Origin: Thermoflexus hugenholtzii JAD2 | Lineage (GTDB): Bacteria; Chloroflexota; Dehalococcoidia; UBA2979 | DNA: 64,000 bases | Assembly (NCBI GenBank): GCA_945903275.1 | Contig: CAMDNW010000006.1 | Coordinates: 1 to 64,000 of the forward strand | Direction: 5' to 3' | In this document: positions 25,991 through 34,501 of the stretch, one piece after another | How positions within the stretch are numbered: the stretch's first letter is position 1 | How the letters are laid out: the number at the start of each line of letters is the position of its first letter | Program-made: the position numbers and the translations under genes | The notes under the pieces: model-generated | What the model saw: only the letters and a program-made list of their open reading frames with translations | Database searches by the model: none | What the model was told of the DNA's origin: nothing

Positions 25991-26943
25991 TCTTCGCGAC
26001 GCCGTGGCTCCTCGGCCTGTTGCCGACTGTCGCGATACTCATCGCTTGGCGGTGGTGGTGGCGGCCAAGAGCGACCACCGCACTCACTGTAACTGACATC
26101 CACCTACTCACTGCGGTACAAGGCCCGCGACTGGGTTGGCGCATCCGGATGCGGTGGGTACCGCGAGCACTGCGCGTCATCGCATTGCTTCTACTGGTAA
26201 TCGCGATCGCCCGGCCGCAACGAGGACTGGCGTTGACCTTCCTCCCCGAGCAGGGCATCGATATCGTCCTTGTCCTCGACCTGTCGGGGTCGATGTCACA
26301 GCCGACGGGTGGCCCCGGCGAGAGATCCGGAACGTCGAAACTCGAGGCCGCACGCACAGTAGTTGAGCAGTTCATCAATACACTCGAAGGCAATCGCGTA
26401 GGCCTCGTCATCTTCCAGGCGCGGTCGCTGGTGATGTCACCACTGACAGTCGACCGTGCTGCCGTGCAACGGAACGTGAAGACGCTAGAACCGGGATTAC
26501 TGCCGGACGGTACCGCGATCGGTCTCGGCATAACGGAGGGGCTGAACTTGCTCCGCACTTCCGAAGCGCGTAGCCGCGTTGTCGTGCTGCTCACGGACGG
26601 GCAGAACAACGCAGGCGAGGTGCAACCATTGCAGGCCGCACAACTCGGCAAGGCGCTTGGTATCCGTATCTATACCATCGGCTTCGTGCAGCGCGCAGGC
26701 GATGTAGACGAGACGGTGTTGCAGCGGATCGCCACAGAGACAGGCGGCTCCTACTACAACGCCTCAACACAGGAAGAACTGGGGAAGGTCTACGACGAAA
26801 TCGGTGCGCTGGAGCGCAGCTTCATCGGAGAACGGCGCTTCACGCGCTATCAGGAACTCAGTCCGTGGCTGGTCGCCGTGTCTCTCGCAATCCTCACAGC
26901 CGAGGCAGCCCTCCGTGCCAGCGTATGGCGGCGATACCCATGA
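25987..26943 (+). CDS. VWA-domain membrane protein, BatA type
   Basis: A 318-residue protein with two N-terminal spans (about 5-20 and 58-75), a VWA domain with a complete MIDAS (VLDLSGSMS near residue 97, TDG in LLTDGQNNAG) and one C-terminal span. The topology matches BatA of Bacteroides aerotolerance loci. Start GTG 25987 overlaps the upstream stop and gives MIFATPWLLGLLP; the longer frame from 25837 lies inside the upstream gene. It overlaps BatBC by 4 bp (ATGA). Confidence 0.88.
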   Translation: MIFATPWLLGLLPTVAILIAWRWWWRPRATTALTVTDIHLLTAVQGPRLGWRIRMRWVPRALRVIALLLLVIAIARPQRGLALTFLPEQGIDIVLVLDLSGSMSQPTGGPGERSGTSKLEAARTVVEQFINTLEGNRVGLVIFQARSLVMSPLTVDRAAVQRNVKTLEPGLLPDGTAIGLGITEGLNLLRTSEARSRVVVLLTDGQNNAGEVQPLQAAQLGKALGIRIYTIGFVQRAGDVDETVLQRIATETGGSYYNASTQEELGKVYDEIGALERSFIGERRFTRYQELSPWLVAVSLAILTAEAALRASVWRRYP

Positions 26944-28712
26944 ACCCAGTGACCTTCGGAGAGCCGCGCGCGCTACTGGCCCTGCTCGTTCTGATTCCGA
27001 TCGCAGCGGCGTGGGCCTACACGGCAATGCAGCGCCGGCGAGCAGACTCGGCCTACGGCGGAGCACAGACACTGCGGGTCGGATGGAATCAGCGCCGCGC
27101 CCAGCTACACGGGGTGCTGGTCATCGCGTCAGTTGTGTGCGCCGCAATCGCAATGGCGCGGCCGCAGTGGGGAACTGCAGACTCGCTCGTGCAGCGCACC
27201 GGCAGCGATATAGTGATCGTCCTCGACATCTCCCGGTCGATGCTCGCAACAGACGTACTGCCATCACGGGCGGCGGCGATCGATGGGGGGCTGCAAACCA
27301 TGCTCGAATACCTCGGCGGAGACCGGGTGGCTCTCGTGACGTTCGGCGGCACAGCGTTTCCCAGATCCCCCCTCACCCTCGACCTCGACGCCATCCGCGA
27401 CCTTGTGAGCCGGTCGCAACGCGAGAGCGCGCTCGTGCGGCCTGGCTCAGACATCGGCACAGCCATCAACGAGGCGTTACGCCTATTGGACGTGCCTGAC
27501 CGCGCGCGCGCGCAAGTGATCGTGCTGATCTCAGACGGCGAAGAAGTGCTCAGTGCCGGAGCAGCCTCGAACGTCACAGCATCTATCGAGGCTGCGAAAC
27601 GGGATGGCGTGCGCATCCACACCATCACCGCGGGCACCGAACAAGGCGCAGCCGTGCCCGGAGGTGAGGGCGTGCGACCGGGGCCAACGCCGGTGATCAG
27701 CCGCGCCGACCGGGCGCTGATGATGCGTATCGCTACCGAAGCAGGCGGTACCGCCCGCGATGTTCGCGCGTTGCCGGGGCTCGCCGTTGAGTTCTCACGA
27801 CTACAGCAATCACAGTTCGATTCCGGCACCGAGCGCATTCCCACCGAGCGGTTCCAGTGGCTGCTCGGCATCGGTCTGGTGCTGCTATTAGCGCAGACGT
27901 TACTCGCCGAGGCGAGCGCGCCAGCCACAACCCATGTACGTACTGGCAGCCGGCGCGTGCTCGGCATCGCGATGCTGTTCGGGAGCATTGTCGTAACAGG
28001 ATGCAGCGGCACGGATGCGTACCAGCGAGTGACCACCGGAAATAGCGCGTTCGAGCGTAGACAGTTCGAACAGGCGCTTGCGGCATATAACGAGGCGAAA
28101 CAGATCACGCCGGACGACGCAGCCGTCGACTACAACATCGCCAACGCCCTCCACCGCCTCGAACGCTACGAGGAGGCAGCGGCTGCGGCCAAGACGGCAG
28201 CGACCTCGGCCAAGGAAGGCAGTCTGTTCGCGCACGCCACCTACACGATTGGGAACAGTGCGTTCCGCCGAAGCGCCCTCACCGAGGCTCGCGAAGCCTA
28301 TGTCGCCGTGCTGCAACGCGACCCGCAGGATGACGACGCGCGGCATAACTTCGAGATTGTCCTCCGTGCGCTCAATGCGCAGACCCCCGCACCACCACCC
28401 AACGGCGCTGAGCAGCCAAGACAGCCCGCACCAGGGATAGGGGCGCCGCCACCCCGAGCGATACCGCAGCCCGGCACGCCTCAGCCGGGTGCCGCCCCGG
28501 GCGGGCCGGGACAACCCGGAACACAACCGAGTACCGGAGGCTCAACAACCGAGGCCAAGGCGATCGGCGACCTCGAGCGCATCCTGGGCGAACTCGGCGA
28601 GGCTGTGACTGCGGAAGAGGCAGTCCGCGTACTCGACGCCGTGCGGGCAGCCAGCGAACGCGGAGTGCTCCGCCCCAACACACCGGGGATGCAGGATCCG
28701 AACGACCGCTAG
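26940..28712 (+). CDS. BatB-BatC fusion: VWA membrane protein with TPR domain
   Basis: A 590-residue protein. Residues 1-345 match BatB: spans at 8-28 and 57-73, MIDAS VLDISRSML (Asp96), LISDGEEV, and a further span near 330-348. Residues 356-480 contain TPR repeats (NSAFERRQFEQALAAYNEAKQITPDDAAVDYNIANALHRLERYEEA), as in BatC. A Pro/Gly/Gln-rich linker and a short helical end follow. At the junction, LFGSIVVTGC (Cys355) is a lipobox-like segment that would be the signal of a separate BatC. The last codons overlap the convergent transglutaminase gene by 4 bp. Confidence 0.88.
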   Translation: MNPVTFGEPRALLALLVLIPIAAAWAYTAMQRRRADSAYGGAQTLRVGWNQRRAQLHGVLVIASVVCAAIAMARPQWGTADSLVQRTGSDIVIVLDISRSMLATDVLPSRAAAIDGGLQTMLEYLGGDRVALVTFGGTAFPRSPLTLDLDAIRDLVSRSQRESALVRPGSDIGTAINEALRLLDVPDRARAQVIVLISDGEEVLSAGAASNVTASIEAAKRDGVRIHTITAGTEQGAAVPGGEGVRPGPTPVISRADRALMMRIATEAGGTARDVRALPGLAVEFSRLQQSQFDSGTERIPTERFQWLLGIGLVLLLAQTLLAEASAPATTHVRTGSRRVLGIAMLFGSIVVTGCSGTDAYQRVTTGNSAFERRQFEQALAAYNEAKQITPDDAAVDYNIANALHRLERYEEAAAAAKTAATSAKEGSLFAHATYTIGNSAFRRSALTEAREAYVAVLQRDPQDDDARHNFEIVLRALNAQTPAPPPNGAEQPRQPAPGIGAPPPRAIPQPGTPQPGAAPGGPGQPGTQPSTGGSTTEAKAIGDLERILGELGEAVTAEEAVRVLDAVRAASERGVLRPNTPGMQDPNDR

Positions 28713-31069
28713 CGACGGCCCAAGCCGAAGAAGCGGCGCACCAGACGGCGGGTCAGCCGTGACCGCGCATCCACGTAGAGCGCGGCCATCTGATTGGCCT
28801 CCTCCTCGGTCTCAGTCATTGCCCGCCCGCCGTAGCGCTCAACGACGTACGCGTGGGCCAGCGGCGCAAGGTCGATCGGCGGACGGGCGAGAGCGGTGTT
28901 TAGTAAGGCCGCTTCTTCAAACGGTGTGCGGTCGCGCCGGACAGTGACGCCTGCCCATCCTGCCAATGTCTGCACTTTTGCCCACCGCTGCGACGCATCG
29001 GAAAGTCCGCGGAACATCGCGGTCCAGACGATACGACCCACAACGAACGCCGAGACGACGGCGAGCGAGGCGACAAACAGCCATGTCCCGGCCTTCGCTA
29101 GGATTCCGGCCAGCTCGCCGCCGGCCTCTTCTCCCAGGCTCGCGCTGGGTTCAATGAATTCTTCCTCAAGCAACAGATCATTAGGCAACAACCCTAGATC
29201 GAGGGCATTCGCCTCCGGAGTCGCCAGATCATCAGGGTTGCCAATGCGCGGGATCAGCGCACGCGAGGGCGTAGGGTTGAAGTCAACCCAGCCAGAGCCG
29301 GGGAAATAGACCTGTGGCCACACCCACGAGTTCTGGTCGGTGACCTTGAACTCCTTGGTGACGGGATCGCGCTCACCCACCTCCATCGCGAACCCGACAG
29401 CGACCCGTGCAGGCACGTTCATCGCGCGAAGCAGCACAACCATCGACGACGCGAAGTAGTCCGAGTAGCCCCGCTTGGCATCGAAGAGGAAGTACTTAAC
29501 CGCGTCCTCACGCTGGGAGCGAGTACCGACCTCTAGCGAATAGACGTAGTTCGTCCGCAGGTAGTCCTCGACCTTGGTCGCAAGCTTGTACGGGATGCGC
29601 TCTTCACCAGCGATCTGCCGGGCAAGCGCGCGTACCTCCGGAGGAAGGTCAGCGAGAAGCTGCAGGTACCGGTCGCGCATCCAGGGGGCGTAGTCAGTGC
29701 TCGATGTGAGCAGGCGGTCGATGCTAGCCGCCGTGACGGTGCCGACAGTCTGGTACTGATCGCCCTTCTCCATTGGCGTTGCCGGTTCGAGGCCCACGAG
29801 ATCCTCGGGCGCGCCGCCACTGACCATGCGCGCTCCAACGCTCGCGGCGAGCGGCTCGCCGAACGAGAAGAGCCTCCGCCGCGCTGGCACTTCATCTAGC
29901 CGGATCGAGCCCAGCACCGGTTGCCGCGCCTGCGCGCGCGTCTGTTGGGTGCCGAACGAGGCGGTCTCCACGGTGGTGCCCAGCAGCGGCCGTGTCGTGA
30001 ACGAACCTTGCTTCCAGCCGTAACCAGTGTACTGGTCGTACACCGCACCACGCAGGTACAGCACCGCCGGAGCGTCATCGCCAACACTCACCCCCAACAG
30101 TGGAGCTGAGCCGAGGCCAACCGACCCCTGCAGCGGAAGCGCACTCTCAAAGCGATGCAGGCCGAGCGACTGTTTAGAACCAACGCCGATGAACAGCTGG
30201 CCGATCCGGTCGACGCGCTGCGAAACCGGCGTGAGCGCCCACGACCAGGCACTCGCGAACGGCCCCCAGTGATTCGCCGTAGGGATCATCCATGCGACAA
30301 CGATAAGGAAAATACCAACCCACGTCGCAAGGTTGAGCACTTCGAGAGACAGGAGTGACGGTGTAACAGCGGCTTCAGACGGTGCCGTTGTCCATCGCTC
30401 GATGGTACGCAGCAGGTGAACGCGCGCGAACAAAAGGATCGCAGCGAAGAGGAATATGACCAACTCCGCAGCGGGCTGTCCCGGTAAATACGAGATGTTC
30501 GTCAGCAGTGCGATCGACCCGGGGACAAGCGCCAGCCAGGGATTCCGCCAACGGGCAACCGACCAGGCGGCGAGGTAGGCGAGCAGCCACGCCCCAAAGA
30601 CCACCATGAGCACGAAGGGCAACGGATCGGTAGAAAAGTCGCCCTTCAGGAGCGCCTGGCCCCACGCTGCATTCCGCGCATACAACTCTTCCCAGCGGTC
30701 GCGAATGCCATCTGGCAGGCCGGGTGCGATACGAAGCGACCGCAGCACCATGCTCAGCACAACGGCAACACCCGCGATGATGCCCGGCGGATGGAGCAAC
30801 CACCCGGAAACGCGAGTGCGCGCAAGCACCCAACCGGAAACGAGCCCGACGATAGCGGCGTTCGAGAGCGAGGGCATCTCGACCACCCAGTTCGCACGCT
30901 CGATGGAAGCCACAACTGCAGCAAGCGCCACATACGTGAGGAAGAACGTCAGCAGTTCCTCACCAGCGTTCAGCCATACACGCCAGCGCCCGGACAGGAA
31001 CGGGGCAGGCGCATCTGAGTCCGGTGTGCGGCGGCCAAACATCTGATCCCAACTGACACGCATCGCCAT
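28709..31069 (-). CDS. Transglutaminase-like membrane protein with substituted active site
   Basis: A 786-residue TgpA-type protein: about six N-terminal membrane spans (to about 270), an external transglutaminase-like domain (about 470-605), a further span near 660 and a cytoplasmic tail. The fold signature is clear (DYFASSMVVLLRAMNVPARVAVGF, WPQVYFPGSGWVDFNPTP). The catalytic Cys position is Ser536 (RGYSDYF, family RGYCDYF) and the His position is Asn580 (DQNSWVW, family HAW or HSW). The third position is Asn598. Enzyme activity is therefore unlikely. It is last in the minus-strand MoxR-DUF58 operon; ATG overlaps the DUF58 stop. Confidence 0.88.
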   Translation of the reverse strand: MAMRVSWDQMFGRRTPDSDAPAPFLSGRWRVWLNAGEELLTFFLTYVALAAVVASIERANWVVEMPSLSNAAIVGLVSGWVLARTRVSGWLLHPPGIIAGVAVVLSMVLRSLRIAPGLPDGIRDRWEELYARNAAWGQALLKGDFSTDPLPFVLMVVFGAWLLAYLAAWSVARWRNPWLALVPGSIALLTNISYLPGQPAAELVIFLFAAILLFARVHLLRTIERWTTAPSEAAVTPSLLSLEVLNLATWVGIFLIVVAWMIPTANHWGPFASAWSWALTPVSQRVDRIGQLFIGVGSKQSLGLHRFESALPLQGSVGLGSAPLLGVSVGDDAPAVLYLRGAVYDQYTGYGWKQGSFTTRPLLGTTVETASFGTQQTRAQARQPVLGSIRLDEVPARRRLFSFGEPLAASVGARMVSGGAPEDLVGLEPATPMEKGDQYQTVGTVTAASIDRLLTSSTDYAPWMRDRYLQLLADLPPEVRALARQIAGEERIPYKLATKVEDYLRTNYVYSLEVGTRSQREDAVKYFLFDAKRGYSDYFASSMVVLLRAMNVPARVAVGFAMEVGERDPVTKEFKVTDQNSWVWPQVYFPGSGWVDFNPTPSRALIPRIGNPDDLATPEANALDLGLLPNDLLLEEEFIEPSASLGEEAGGELAGILAKAGTWLFVASLAVVSAFVVGRIVWTAMFRGLSDASQRWAKVQTLAGWAGVTVRRDRTPFEEAALLNTALARPPIDLAPLAHAYVVERYGGRAMTETEEEANQMAALYVDARSRLTRRLVRRFFGLGRR

Positions 31070-32325
31070 CAGTGGCGCTCTTCAGCAGCAGCAGCCTCAG
31101 CACCAGTGGAGAGGACCTGCCCGACATCGTCTGAACGCTTGATCATGTACGTATAGATGCCACCTGCAGCGAGCGTGCCGTAGACGCCGAGAGCGCTTTC
31201 TGCCTCGTCGAACGTCTCAGCTTCAAGCAGTACAGCCGCGACTTTCACACCCCGCGAAGCGAGACCCATGAGCGTGAGTGCCCATGCGTCGTCGGTCGAT
31301 GACGTGATGACCACCAGTGTCGTATGCCGGCCAAACCGCCGAGACTCCTCGACCAACAGGCTCTCCAGCGAAACATCGCCGGTAGCACGGGCGAGCGCGA
31401 GCGATTCGAGGATGCGCGTGTAATGGTTCATTCCGCGATCGGGTTCGTCGACTCTGAGGTCTTCACCGAACGAGAGGAACCCCACTGTGCGGTTTGCCTG
31501 AATGAAATAGCGGGCGATGGCTGCGCCAATCTTGACGGCCGCTTCCTCCGTACTGTCATCGCCCTCGCCCGCCTGCACCGAAGCCTGCAAATCGAGCACG
31601 ATCCAGATGTCCGATGCCGGGTCAAGTTCGAACAGTTTCACCATCAGGTTGCCCGTGCGGGCGGTCGCAGGCCAATGGATACGATTATATGAGTCGCCCG
31701 GTTCGTAGCCGCGAAGGCCAGCCACGTTGGGTGTCACGTTGTGCGTACGGCGCCGGAAGCGGCCATCACCGGGCAGGTTCGCGGGAGGGATATAGAAGTT
31801 GGGGAGCTCCGGAGCACTCGGATAGACGAGGATCGGCACTATCGAACCAAAGACGCGAGTGAACCGGAAGAAGCCGAACGGATCGGTCGCGGTGACCGTC
31901 ACCGGGCCAAGTTCATATAGGCCCCGGCGCGTGGTGGGCGTCTCGTACCGCCAGACCTGCACCGCACGGCCACCCAACGTCATCACCCGGCGCGTAGCGT
32001 GACGAGGCAGTGTCGAACGATCTTCCACCTCCAGCCACACTTTCGGGAGCCGTGAGGTGGAACGGAGCACGATGCGGCCCTCGACCAGTTGGCCCTGCGC
32101 GACGCGCTGCGTGCGGCGGATGACTTCAACATCCAGATCCTCAATCATCGAGCGCGTCCAGAGATACACAAGCGGAATTACGAGGACGAGCAGATACGCA
32201 AGCCGGAACAGCAACCAGAAGCCGGTCGCGAAGCCACCGATAAAACAGATGACGGCGACCACTACGGCCGCTGTGACGTTCGGATACCGCTGTGCCCCGC
32301 GCCAGAGGCGACCGAGGCCGGTCAT
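31069..32325 (-). CDS. DUF58 membrane protein
   Basis: A 418-residue protein with two N-terminal spans (about 16-32 and 33-52) and a cytoplasmic DUF58 domain (TPNVAGLRGYEPGDSYNRIHWPATARTGNLMVKLFELDPASDIWIVLDL, about 195-245). Its VWA-like part lacks a clean MIDAS: LDLQASVQ replaces DxSxS. It is the middle gene of the MoxR-DUF58-transglutaminase operon, 3 bp after MoxR and overlapping the next gene by 1-4 bp. In this set the membrane form of DUF58 goes with the transglutaminase-like protein. Confidence 0.88.
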   Translation of the reverse strand: MTGLGRLWRGAQRYPNVTAAVVVAVICFIGGFATGFWLLFRLAYLLVLVIPLVYLWTRSMIEDLDVEVIRRTQRVAQGQLVEGRIVLRSTSRLPKVWLEVEDRSTLPRHATRRVMTLGGRAVQVWRYETPTTRRGLYELGPVTVTATDPFGFFRFTRVFGSIVPILVYPSAPELPNFYIPPANLPGDGRFRRRTHNVTPNVAGLRGYEPGDSYNRIHWPATARTGNLMVKLFELDPASDIWIVLDLQASVQAGEGDDSTEEAAVKIGAAIARYFIQANRTVGFLSFGEDLRVDEPDRGMNHYTRILESLALARATGDVSLESLLVEESRRFGRHTTLVVITSSTDDAWALTLMGLASRGVKVAAVLLEAETFDEAESALGVYGTLAAGGIYTYMIKRSDDVGQVLSTGAEAAAAEERH

Positions 32326-32328
32326 GAC

Positions 32329-33285
32329 TCAGGCGCCGCCGCGTGCGCGTGCGCCTGGCACAGGGACACGACCAATGCATTCGTCGATGATCTGCGCGCT
32401 TTCGATATTCCGGACGCGCGCACCGGGACTCACGATCACGCGGTGGCCGAGCGTGGGATACGCGAGCAACTTGATATCGTCCGGCTGGACAAAATCGCGG
32501 CCTTCAAGCATGGCGTACGACTGTGCGGCGCGCATGAGCGCGAGAGAGCCCCGCGGCGAAGCGCCAAGGTACACACTCTCATGCTCACGAGTCGCGTTCA
32601 CCAGCGTGACGATGTACTGCTTCACCAGTGCGTCCACGTATATCTCACGCACCGCACTCTGGAGTTCAAGCAATTCTGCAGCAGACGCCACCTGATCGAG
32701 CGAATCGATTGGGTGCGCGGACTGCTGAGCATCCATGATCAACACTTCGTCGGTCGGCGATGGGTAGCCAAGATGCACGCGCATCAGAAAGCGATCCAGT
32801 TGCGCCTCAGGCAGCGGGAACGTGCCTTCATACTCGATGGGGTTCTGAGTGGCCATCACCATGAACGGCTCAGTAATGGGATGCGTGATGCCATCCACAG
32901 TGACTTGGCGCTCTTCCATCGCTTCCAGCAGTGCTGACTGCGTCTTGGGCGTAGCGCGGTTGATTTCATCGGTCAGCACAACCTGAGCCATGATTGGCCC
33001 GGGGCGAAACTCAAAGTCGCGAGTGGCCGGGTTGAAAATCGACACGCCCGTCACATCGGATGGCAACAGGTCGGGAGTGAACTGGATGCGCTGAAACAGG
33101 CACCCGGTCGAACGGGCAAGGGCCCGCGCGAGCATAGTTTTTCCAACGCCAGGGACATCCTCGATGAGCAGATGGCCACGAGAGAGCAGGCAGACGAGCG
33201 CCAGTCTAGTCTCGAAGGATTTACCAAAAATGACACAATCAACATTCGCAAGGATGCGCTCTGCGGCGATCCGGGGGTCTAGCAC
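32329..33285 (-). CDS. MoxR family AAA ATPase (second copy)
   Basis: A 318-residue MoxR ATPase. Walker A is [15 protein letters not shown], Walker [28 protein letters not shown], sensor 1 [28 protein letters not shown], and the lid [33 protein letters not shown] start at GTG 33285, which has AGGAGG 5-6 bases upstream and gives [15 protein letters not shown]; the same frame runs open to 33810 only because it shadows the divergent M23 gene. It differs from the plus-strand MoxR in its Walker A (GVGKT, not GLAKT). Confidence 0.92.
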
Positions 33286-33343
33286 GCGGCCCTCCTGTCG
33301 AGGCTGCGCAGAGTGTGGGAGACCCGCTATGCGGCGGGCGCAC

Positions 33344-33352
33344 AGTATAGCA
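33344..33352 (-). promoter_or_regulatory. Extended -10 of the minus-strand MoxR operon
   Basis: On the minus strand TGCTATACT (33352-33344) is an extended -10, about 58 bases before the GTG at 33285. The divergent M23 gene has its own -10 at 33394-33399. Confidence 0.5.
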
Positions 33353-33393
33353 ACGCAATGTGACCGCAAGCGGATCGTCAGCAAAACCGCCAG

Positions 33394-33399
33394 TACGAT
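33394..33399 (+). promoter_or_regulatory. -10 box of the M23 peptidase gene
   Basis: TACGAT, 28 bases before ATG 33428. It leaves a short leader with an AGGAGG ribosome binding site. Confidence 0.4.
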
Positions 33400-33427
33400 A
33401 GACATACAAACCTCAAGGAGGCCGCGT

Positions 33428-34501
33428 ATGCGACGCCCACCCCCTGATAGACGCCCCCCACAGGCACGCTGGCCTCGCCGGCGAGTGCTGCAATTGGCGG
33501 CTGGTGCGGCCGGAGCCCTCCCGGTAATCGTGTTCTTCGCCACCCGCGGCGGACCCAGCGATGACCCACTGCTCGTGACGACACCCGGTACAGAGGGCAG
33601 TCCCGTCCCAACAGGGACACCAACCGTCACGCAGAGTCCAACCCCAACCGTGCGCCCGCCCACTACACCAGCGTCACCACGCCCGTCACCGGTCGCCACG
33701 GCGCTCACAGTGCAGTTCGAGCCACCTGAAGTCGGCACCGGCGAGGCAATGCGAGTCATCGCACAGGCGGAGGGCGCGGCCAGCGGCACGGTGCAGTTCA
33801 ACGGTGCCACGTACCTAATGGCGCCGCTCGGAGACGGGCAGTTCTGGACAGTCGTTGCCGCGCCGCTGGGTCAGGGGCCGGGGACACGCCCGCTCGTGAT
33901 AACCGTGCGAAACACGGCTGGCGCAGTCGTAGGCACAAACACCACGCAGACGGCGGTCGTGACTGTCGACCGACCGGTGCAGTATCTCCAAGCGACGGCA
34001 GAACAGGTCTCCGTCCTGACTGCGGACGCGCAGGCCAGAGAAGACATGCTGCGGGCGCAGCACTTCTCAGCCTTCGACCGCGCCCCGCAATGGCGCGGAT
34101 TCTTCGAGCGTCCCACACCGGGCAAAATTTCAACGTACTTCGGGCAGGGGCGATCGATCAACGGAGGACCGGTAGGCGGGGTTCACTCGGGCGTCGATTT
34201 CGCCGATGACCACGGGACGAGTGTGCGCTTACCGGCGGCGGGCCGCATCGACTGGGTCAGCGAGATGCCGATCCGCGGGAACTCGGTAATCGTCGATCAC
34301 GGCGGTGGGGTGAAAAGCGGCTACCACCATCTGAGCACGGTGAGCGTAGTGGTTGGCGACGCAGTTCTCCCGGCGGGCACACCGCTCGGCGCGGTGGGCA
34401 TGACCGGGTTCGCAACCGGCCCGCACCTCCATTGGGAAGTGACTGTGACCGGCACCAACGTCGATCCGATGACGTGGCTTACAACCAGGTTTGCGCCCTG
34501 A
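33428..34501 (+). CDS. M23 family metallopeptidase (LytM type), exported
   Basis: A 357-residue envelope protein. An Arg-rich start ([18 protein letters not shown]) leads into a hydrophobic segment (about 20-37) that acts as signal or anchor; the RR pair is suggestive of, but does not match, a Tat motif. A Thr/Pro linker (about 45-85), a beta-rich domain and the C-terminal M23 domain follow. Zinc ligands are seen in HSGVDF (HxxxD) and GPHLHWEV. It would cut peptidoglycan cross-links. ATG 33428 has AGGAGG 6 bases before it. Its 3' end overlaps rsmE by 23 bp. Confidence 0.9.

Follow-up and report, generated by a model that had tools for sequence, protein, structure and literature searches.

Here, we report that a TgpA-like membrane protein encoded in a 64,000-nucleotide stretch of a Chloroflexota genome (contig CAMDNW010000006.1, positions 1 to 64,000; hereafter the window) carries replacements in all three positions of the catalytic triad of TgpA-type transglutaminases, and that it is best read as a conserved pseudoenzyme with a putatively plugged active site. 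The protein of 786 residues is encoded by a complete open reading frame (ORF) at 28709..31069 on the minus strand, where all other features of the protein and of its operon given below are also located. Ser536, Trp582 and Asn598 occupy the places of the catalytic Cys, His and acid, and the relatives of the protein indicate that the site was lost early in a large lineage in which the gene has since been kept.

Active site and fold of the TgpA-like protein

The register of the triad was anchored on the periplasmic domain of TgpA from Pseudomonas aeruginosa (6G49/6G4H), the only sequence relative with a solved structure. In this alignment the GFC motif of TgpA pairs with GYS536, DAHAW with N580-S-W582-V-W584, and VDPT with FN598PT. 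Ser536 (codon TCG, 29462..29464) is aligned with the nucleophilic Cys of 6G49 as well as with that of homologues having a Cys-His-Glu triad, in agreement with an earlier note on this DNA, made from the sequence alone. The same note had placed the catalytic His at Asn580 (29330..29332), which is two residues off, since the His aligns with Trp582 (29324..29326) in the TgpA and homologue alignments and by column conservation. Position 580 is variable and lies outside the triad, with an entropy rank of 87 among 139 columns in Cys-His-Glu homologues and of 111 among 142 in the family of the window's protein. Column 582 is an invariant His in Cys-His-Glu and Ser-His-Glu proteins and an invariant Trp in that family. 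The TgpA alignment and the column conservation together rule out Asn580 as the catalytic His position. The third replacement had been missed: the last residue of the triad, which is the Asp of VDPT in TgpA and the Glu of FEPT in Chloroflexota, corresponds by the same alignments and column conservation to Asn598 (29276..29278).

No Cys is present among all 786 residues and no His at residues 470-610, and a catalytic Cys or His that had migrated to another place in the protein is thereby ruled out. None of the Cys-His-Asp/Glu residues by which an active TgpA-type transglutaminase would be recognised is found. On these alignments the protein is regarded as homologous to TgpA and is not classed as an active transglutaminase. 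In the AlphaFold model Ser536 opens a helix (536-549), Trp582 is placed in a strand (581-589) and Asn598 just past another (593-596), and the predicted positions of residues 536, 582 and 598 are as expected for the Cys-His-Asp arrangement of a transglutaminase.

The claim that this is a full-length TgpA-type protein was upheld by the complete ORF, which spans exactly the coordinates given above, and by its PF01841 core. Transglut_core PF01841 matched residues 480-599 (Pfam, E 1.3e-20, 74.2 bits against a cut-off of 23) and is the sole match to this family in the 1.75 Mb genome. The predicted local distance difference test (pLDDT) score of the model was 87.5 overall and mostly 91-98 within the transglutaminase core, residues 480-602 (29264..29632). 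The surrounding periplasmic domain, residues ~300-615 (29225..30172), matches the TgpA crystal structure, with a VIA-align Z of 26.4 to 6G4H over model residues 303-607 (264 residues, root-mean-square deviation 3.0 Å, 24% identity) and a Foldseek E of 2.6e-14. The model further contains N-terminal helices at residues 27-261 (30287..30991) and a C-terminal helix at residues 654-685 (29015..29110), which are presumably inserted in the membrane. TgpA_N (PF11992) had no match in the protein and matched 22 of the 52 aligned homologues. A DUF4129-like C-terminal segment at residues 701-757 (28799..28969) reached 18.7 bits with PF13559, below the cut-off of 24.8; 46 of the 52 homologues match this family. 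NCBIfam scans of the protein, of its DUF58 neighbour and of one Ser-His-Glu protein gave no match. Judged from the model, this is a true TgpA-type membrane protein of full length, predicted to have kept the TgpA periplasmic fold.

Origin and maintenance of the triad-less proteins

The homologous proteins compared came from about 145 loci of the phylum and the class; a scan of the genome contigs gave a single relative, and the sampling of homologues rests on searches of the genomes. Among homologues from the phylum's other classes, the 20 with the highest scores were included in the tree, and all of these were Cys-His-Glu. The family of the window's protein has 38 members, all with Trp and Asn in the second and third positions and 36 with the combination Phe-Trp-Asn, and in none of the 38 was a Cys found at residues 300-615. 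The replacements are thus not the isolated change that the earlier note had allowed for: every family member read lacks both Cys and His, and the whole family is without the triad. Ser-Trp-Asn is confined to the window's protein and that of a second genome of the same genus (G400), the third genus member (G401) being Phe-Trp-Asn, and the clade of Ser/Asn homologues that had been anticipated does not extend beyond these two genomes. Other families of the class carry Phe-Tyr-Asn, Phe-Phe-Asn, Phe-Phe-Ser, Tyr-Tyr-Asp, Ala-Phe-Ser, Val-Met-Ala, Pro-Tyr-Ser and a few more combinations. One genome (G447) contains two TgpA-like genes, L090 with Ser-Leu-Ala and the partial L150 with Cys-His-Asn.

In a tree of 127 rows, from which the three triad columns were left out, the triad-less proteins formed one clade of 68 rows (support 100) with the family of the window's protein inside it (support 100). 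The window's protein and that of G400 constitute a pair (support 100) nested in Phe-Trp-Asn relatives (97, then 100). Across the 68-row clade Cys-His-Glu became Phe-(Trp/Tyr/Phe)-(Asn/Ser), and the simplest reading of the sequences is one ancient loss with Phe, followed by a late change from Phe to Ser in the genus of the window's genome. Two proteins, L109 and L121 (families f105 and f121), have Ala-His-Asn, with the His kept and the Cys and the acid lost, and are found in genomes with wall genes; they are possible intermediates between active and triad-less proteins.

Ser536 is no sequencing slip, because G400 has Ser at the same position with a different codon, AGC instead of TCG. Sequencing error and isolated mutation are both ruled out by this second Ser and by the absence of the triad from the whole family. 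The two codons belong to separate Ser classes that no single base change connects; Ser536 must then have two origins, or its codon must have encoded some other residue in between.

The ratio of nonsynonymous to synonymous substitution rates (dN/dS) in close triad-less pairs was 0.07-0.30 for the whole gene and 0.035-0.24 for the transglutaminase core, with the core lower in most pairs. For the window's protein and that of G400 the values were 0.29 and 0.23, respectively, but with a synonymous rate (dS) >1 for that pair. Among the 142 columns in the family, position 536 ranks 27th in conservation, 582 ranks 14th and 598 ranks 19th. These figures indicate that the triad-less protein is maintained under purifying selection and is not decaying. 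The view in the earlier note that the replacements are not decay, and that the protein is perhaps a pseudoenzyme scaffold, accords with the clade-wide loss of the triad, the purifying selection and the retained operon.

Ser-His-Glu relatives and wall genes

In 23 distinct loci from 17 families the nucleophilic Cys is replaced by Ser, and His and Glu are kept (L094, L096, L097, L098, L099, L101, L102, L110, L113, L117, L118, L124-L129, L131, L132, L134, L138, L139 and L147). Ser-His-Glu and Cys-His-Glu proteins are interleaved in a separate group of 33 rows from the class (support 92/96 in the careful tree), where well-supported branches force at least three Cys/Ser changes. A single origin of Ser-His-Glu was rejected by an approximately unbiased test (p-AU 0.002 against one clade), a value to be taken with caution as the group was named after the alignment had been seen. 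The window's protein is ruled out as a member of this group by the trees and by the Trp and Asn at its His and acid positions. Cys is absent from the domain in 20 of the 23 Ser-His-Glu proteins. The group is defined by Ser, His and Glu; its proteins are otherwise divergent (median column entropy 1.34 bits), and the three residues are retained together, unlike the drift seen in the clade of the window's protein. That His and Glu have not drifted, as would be expected had Ser killed the enzyme, suggests without proof that Ser is the nucleophile. The group is a possible natural serine version of the transglutaminase fold, and would, if active, represent a repeated natural Cys/Ser exchange in a fold that is normally regarded as cysteine-based.

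The class, probably Dehalococcoidia to judge from genome sizes and missing wall genes, also contains small, wall-less, Dehalococcoides-like genomes. None of the 18 Ser-His-Glu genomes tested (G439, G475, G483, G284, G453, G603, G649, G122, G675, G724, G727, G716, G696, G362, G326, G563, G736 and G194) had mraY over the cut-off, and one transpeptidase-family match, a single one in G736, was found among them. Neither mraY nor transpeptidases were found in the eight Cys-His-Glu genomes of this 33-row group that were tested (G471, G726, G554, G256, G393, G039, G186 and G674). In the triad-less families every one of the 43 genomes tested had matches to both mraY and PF00905, the mraY match falling just short of the cut-off in two, and both are present in the window's own genome. 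Within the class, absence of the wall and retention of His and Glu in TgpA thus fall on the same branch, an association that is not independent evidence of cause because each of the contrasts depends on a single deep branch or on a few of them. Two fates within one class may tentatively be proposed, although we consider this doubtful: the walled branch would have plugged the site and kept a pseudoenzyme, and the wall-less branch would have a natural serine-triad enzyme on the transglutaminase/papain-like fold, able to switch between Cys and Ser with His and Glu invariant.

Possible role and known systems

The earlier note assigned the gene to a MoxR-DUF58 operon, and it is indeed located downstream of both genes. 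A DUF58 protein of 418 residues (31069..32325; PF01882, E 1.5e-19) is encoded directly upstream in the same operon, together with a MoxR-type AAA+ ATPase (AAA_3; 32329..33810; PF07726 at 213-343, E 2.2e-64), whose ORF as listed begins far upstream of the domain, so that the true start is probably later. MoxR, DUF58 and TgpA-like genes follow one another in the same order whether the locus is triad-less, Ser-His-Glu or Cys-His-Glu, in most of the loci with enough flank; this context was judged where the flank sufficed, upstream flanks being too short in many loci. By the same neighbour search L114 had neither partner, and L117 and L118 had DUF58 but no MoxR. A convergent VWA (BatA-like) operon ends against the TgpA-like gene in the window and in several related families. 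In the window, the convergent VWA-TPR gene (26865-28712) and the TgpA-like gene share the four bases 28709-28712 (CTAG) at their stop codons. No other PF01841 protein was found in 20 of the 34 genomes of the families in the triad-less clade; as the TgpA-like protein is often the sole one, an active paralogue for it to regulate is usually not there.

We consider it probable that the protein is a pseudoenzyme with a binding or structural function in its membrane complex. The loss of the ancestral chemistry is held with high confidence, and for the binding or structural role itself our preference is slight. A large lineage keeps the machine with the catalytic residues replaced, which argues for a non-catalytic job of the TgpA part. 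As alignment and tree show, the active site was abolished long before the genus arose, by the change from Cys-His-Glu to Phe-aromatic-Asn/Ser, and the replaced site has been under purifying selection ever since. Phe then gave way to Ser in the genus. With Trp and Asn in the other two places, and with Cys absent from the protein and His from the domain, this Ser would lack a general base and would be no nucleophile. MoxR and the DUF58 protein may act on the TgpA-like protein from the cytoplasmic side, and the periplasmic domain may have a binding or structural function without catalysis, recognising a partner in the cell envelope through the former substrate cleft or a neighbouring surface. What has been kept in the lineage would be complex assembly or client binding by the MoxR-DUF58-TgpA machine and not acyl transfer, a mechanism that draws on the general repertoire of pseudoenzymes (PMC10211241).

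Some observations weigh against an early, single loss and a protein maintained for binding. The partial row L150 is still Cys-His-Asn inside the triad-less clade, with weak support (86) and on a long branch, and its placement there leaves some room for more than one loss within the clade. The copy L137, in the single-contig genome G559 of family f10 (C1 ~1903716-1905745), is broken over several frames and is either a pseudogene or the product of sequencing errors; such a copy implies that the gene may be dispensable in places. No match at all was obtained in the family members G405 and G419, the genomes of which are 88 and 83% complete. The binding or scaffold role is itself deduced from the operon context and from how pseudoenzymes generally behave, and the sequence would be compatible with a reaction in which the triad residues take no part.

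The broken copy and the two genomes without a match would also suit a gene on its way out, in which loss of catalysis came first and the protein persists only because its decay is slow. However, every close pair has a dN/dS far below 1, neither Trp nor Asn varies among the 38 family members, the ORFs are full-length and the operon is kept, which makes such decay highly implausible. Hardly more credible is Ser536 as a working nucleophile with an unconventional base, the different chemistry that the earlier note had imagined for Ser and Asn. Ser536 is common to two genomes with codons of different Ser classes, and Ser itself may have been kept; the 23 loci with Ser in place of Cys also lend the idea some support. 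Those loci retain His and Glu, however, and position 580 is no active-site position in the window's protein, where Trp and Asn stand in the actual places of the His and the acid and no His occurs at 470-610. Its Ser moreover descends from an already dead Phe, still seen in the third genus member, in a clade that was by then triad-less. A different chemistry may fit the Ser-His-Glu cousins, not this protein.

A putative sensor or ligand receptor, in which the filled site would bind an envelope peptide or a small ligand and signal across the membrane to DUF58 and MoxR, is a possible but rather unlikely alternative. The replaced positions are conserved like the structural core, the core is under tighter constraint in most close pairs and the cleft fold is kept; on the other hand, side chains as bulky as those of Phe and Trp would probably fill the pocket and not open it. 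Loss of catalysis following loss of peptidoglycan might be suspected from the many small genomes of the class without mraY and penicillin-binding transpeptidases, but the reverse is seen. Triad-less families have mraY and PF00905, and relatives that lack these keep Cys/Ser-His-Glu; since wall genes are present in the triad-less families, the pseudoenzyme did not follow wall loss, and this explanation is refuted.

Searches of the literature available to us found no paper on triad-less TgpA proteins of MoxR-DUF58 operons, none mentioning both Dehalococcoidia and transglutaminase, and, apart from one review on ubiquitin proteases, nothing on transglutaminase pseudoenzymes with Ser/Cys. The pseudoenzyme that we favour can nevertheless be compared with several known systems. 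TgpA (PA2873) of P. aeruginosa has the closest solved structure and likewise combines membrane helices with a periplasmic transglutaminase domain, and its gene is the third of the co-transcribed cluster PA2875-PA2874-PA2873 (PMC3507681). The triad of TgpA, Cys-His-Asp, is conserved, and transglutaminase activity was assayed with the periplasmic domain in purified form (PMC3507681), whereas in the window's protein all three residues are replaced and identity is low. In P. aeruginosa tgpA was reported to be essential, and the result for PA2874 was inconclusive (PMC3507681). RloB of P. aeruginosa (PMC12239564) and HM2192 (PMC12096838) are inactive transglutaminases, the RloB type with seven transmembrane helices, and their disruption has phenotypes. 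The RloB type has aspartic protease and ATP-grasp partners in its operon, in contrast to the DUF58 and MoxR genes upstream and the convergent VWA operon downstream here, and its Pfam family had no match in the window's protein and 51 homologues (Pfam-A scan, E up to 1). Protein 4.2 (EPB42) of red cells, listed as catalytically inactive (PMC10318531), is a transglutaminase-fold pseudoenzyme with a membrane-linked structural role, but it is eukaryotic, has no AAA+ ATPase as operon partner and shows only distant fold similarity (Z ~8 to the core of the window's protein). The SERA5-type papain-like proteins of Plasmodium, with Ser for the active-site Cys (PMC2878606), resemble the Ser-His-Glu group; they are a eukaryotic protease family, and the window's protein differs in being without the His and acid partners. 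Transglutaminase-fold pseudoenzymes are thus already known, and the one described here is real and conserved but conceptually familiar; its triad-less lineage allows the job of TgpA in the poorly understood MoxR-DUF58-TgpA machine to be studied apart from its chemistry.

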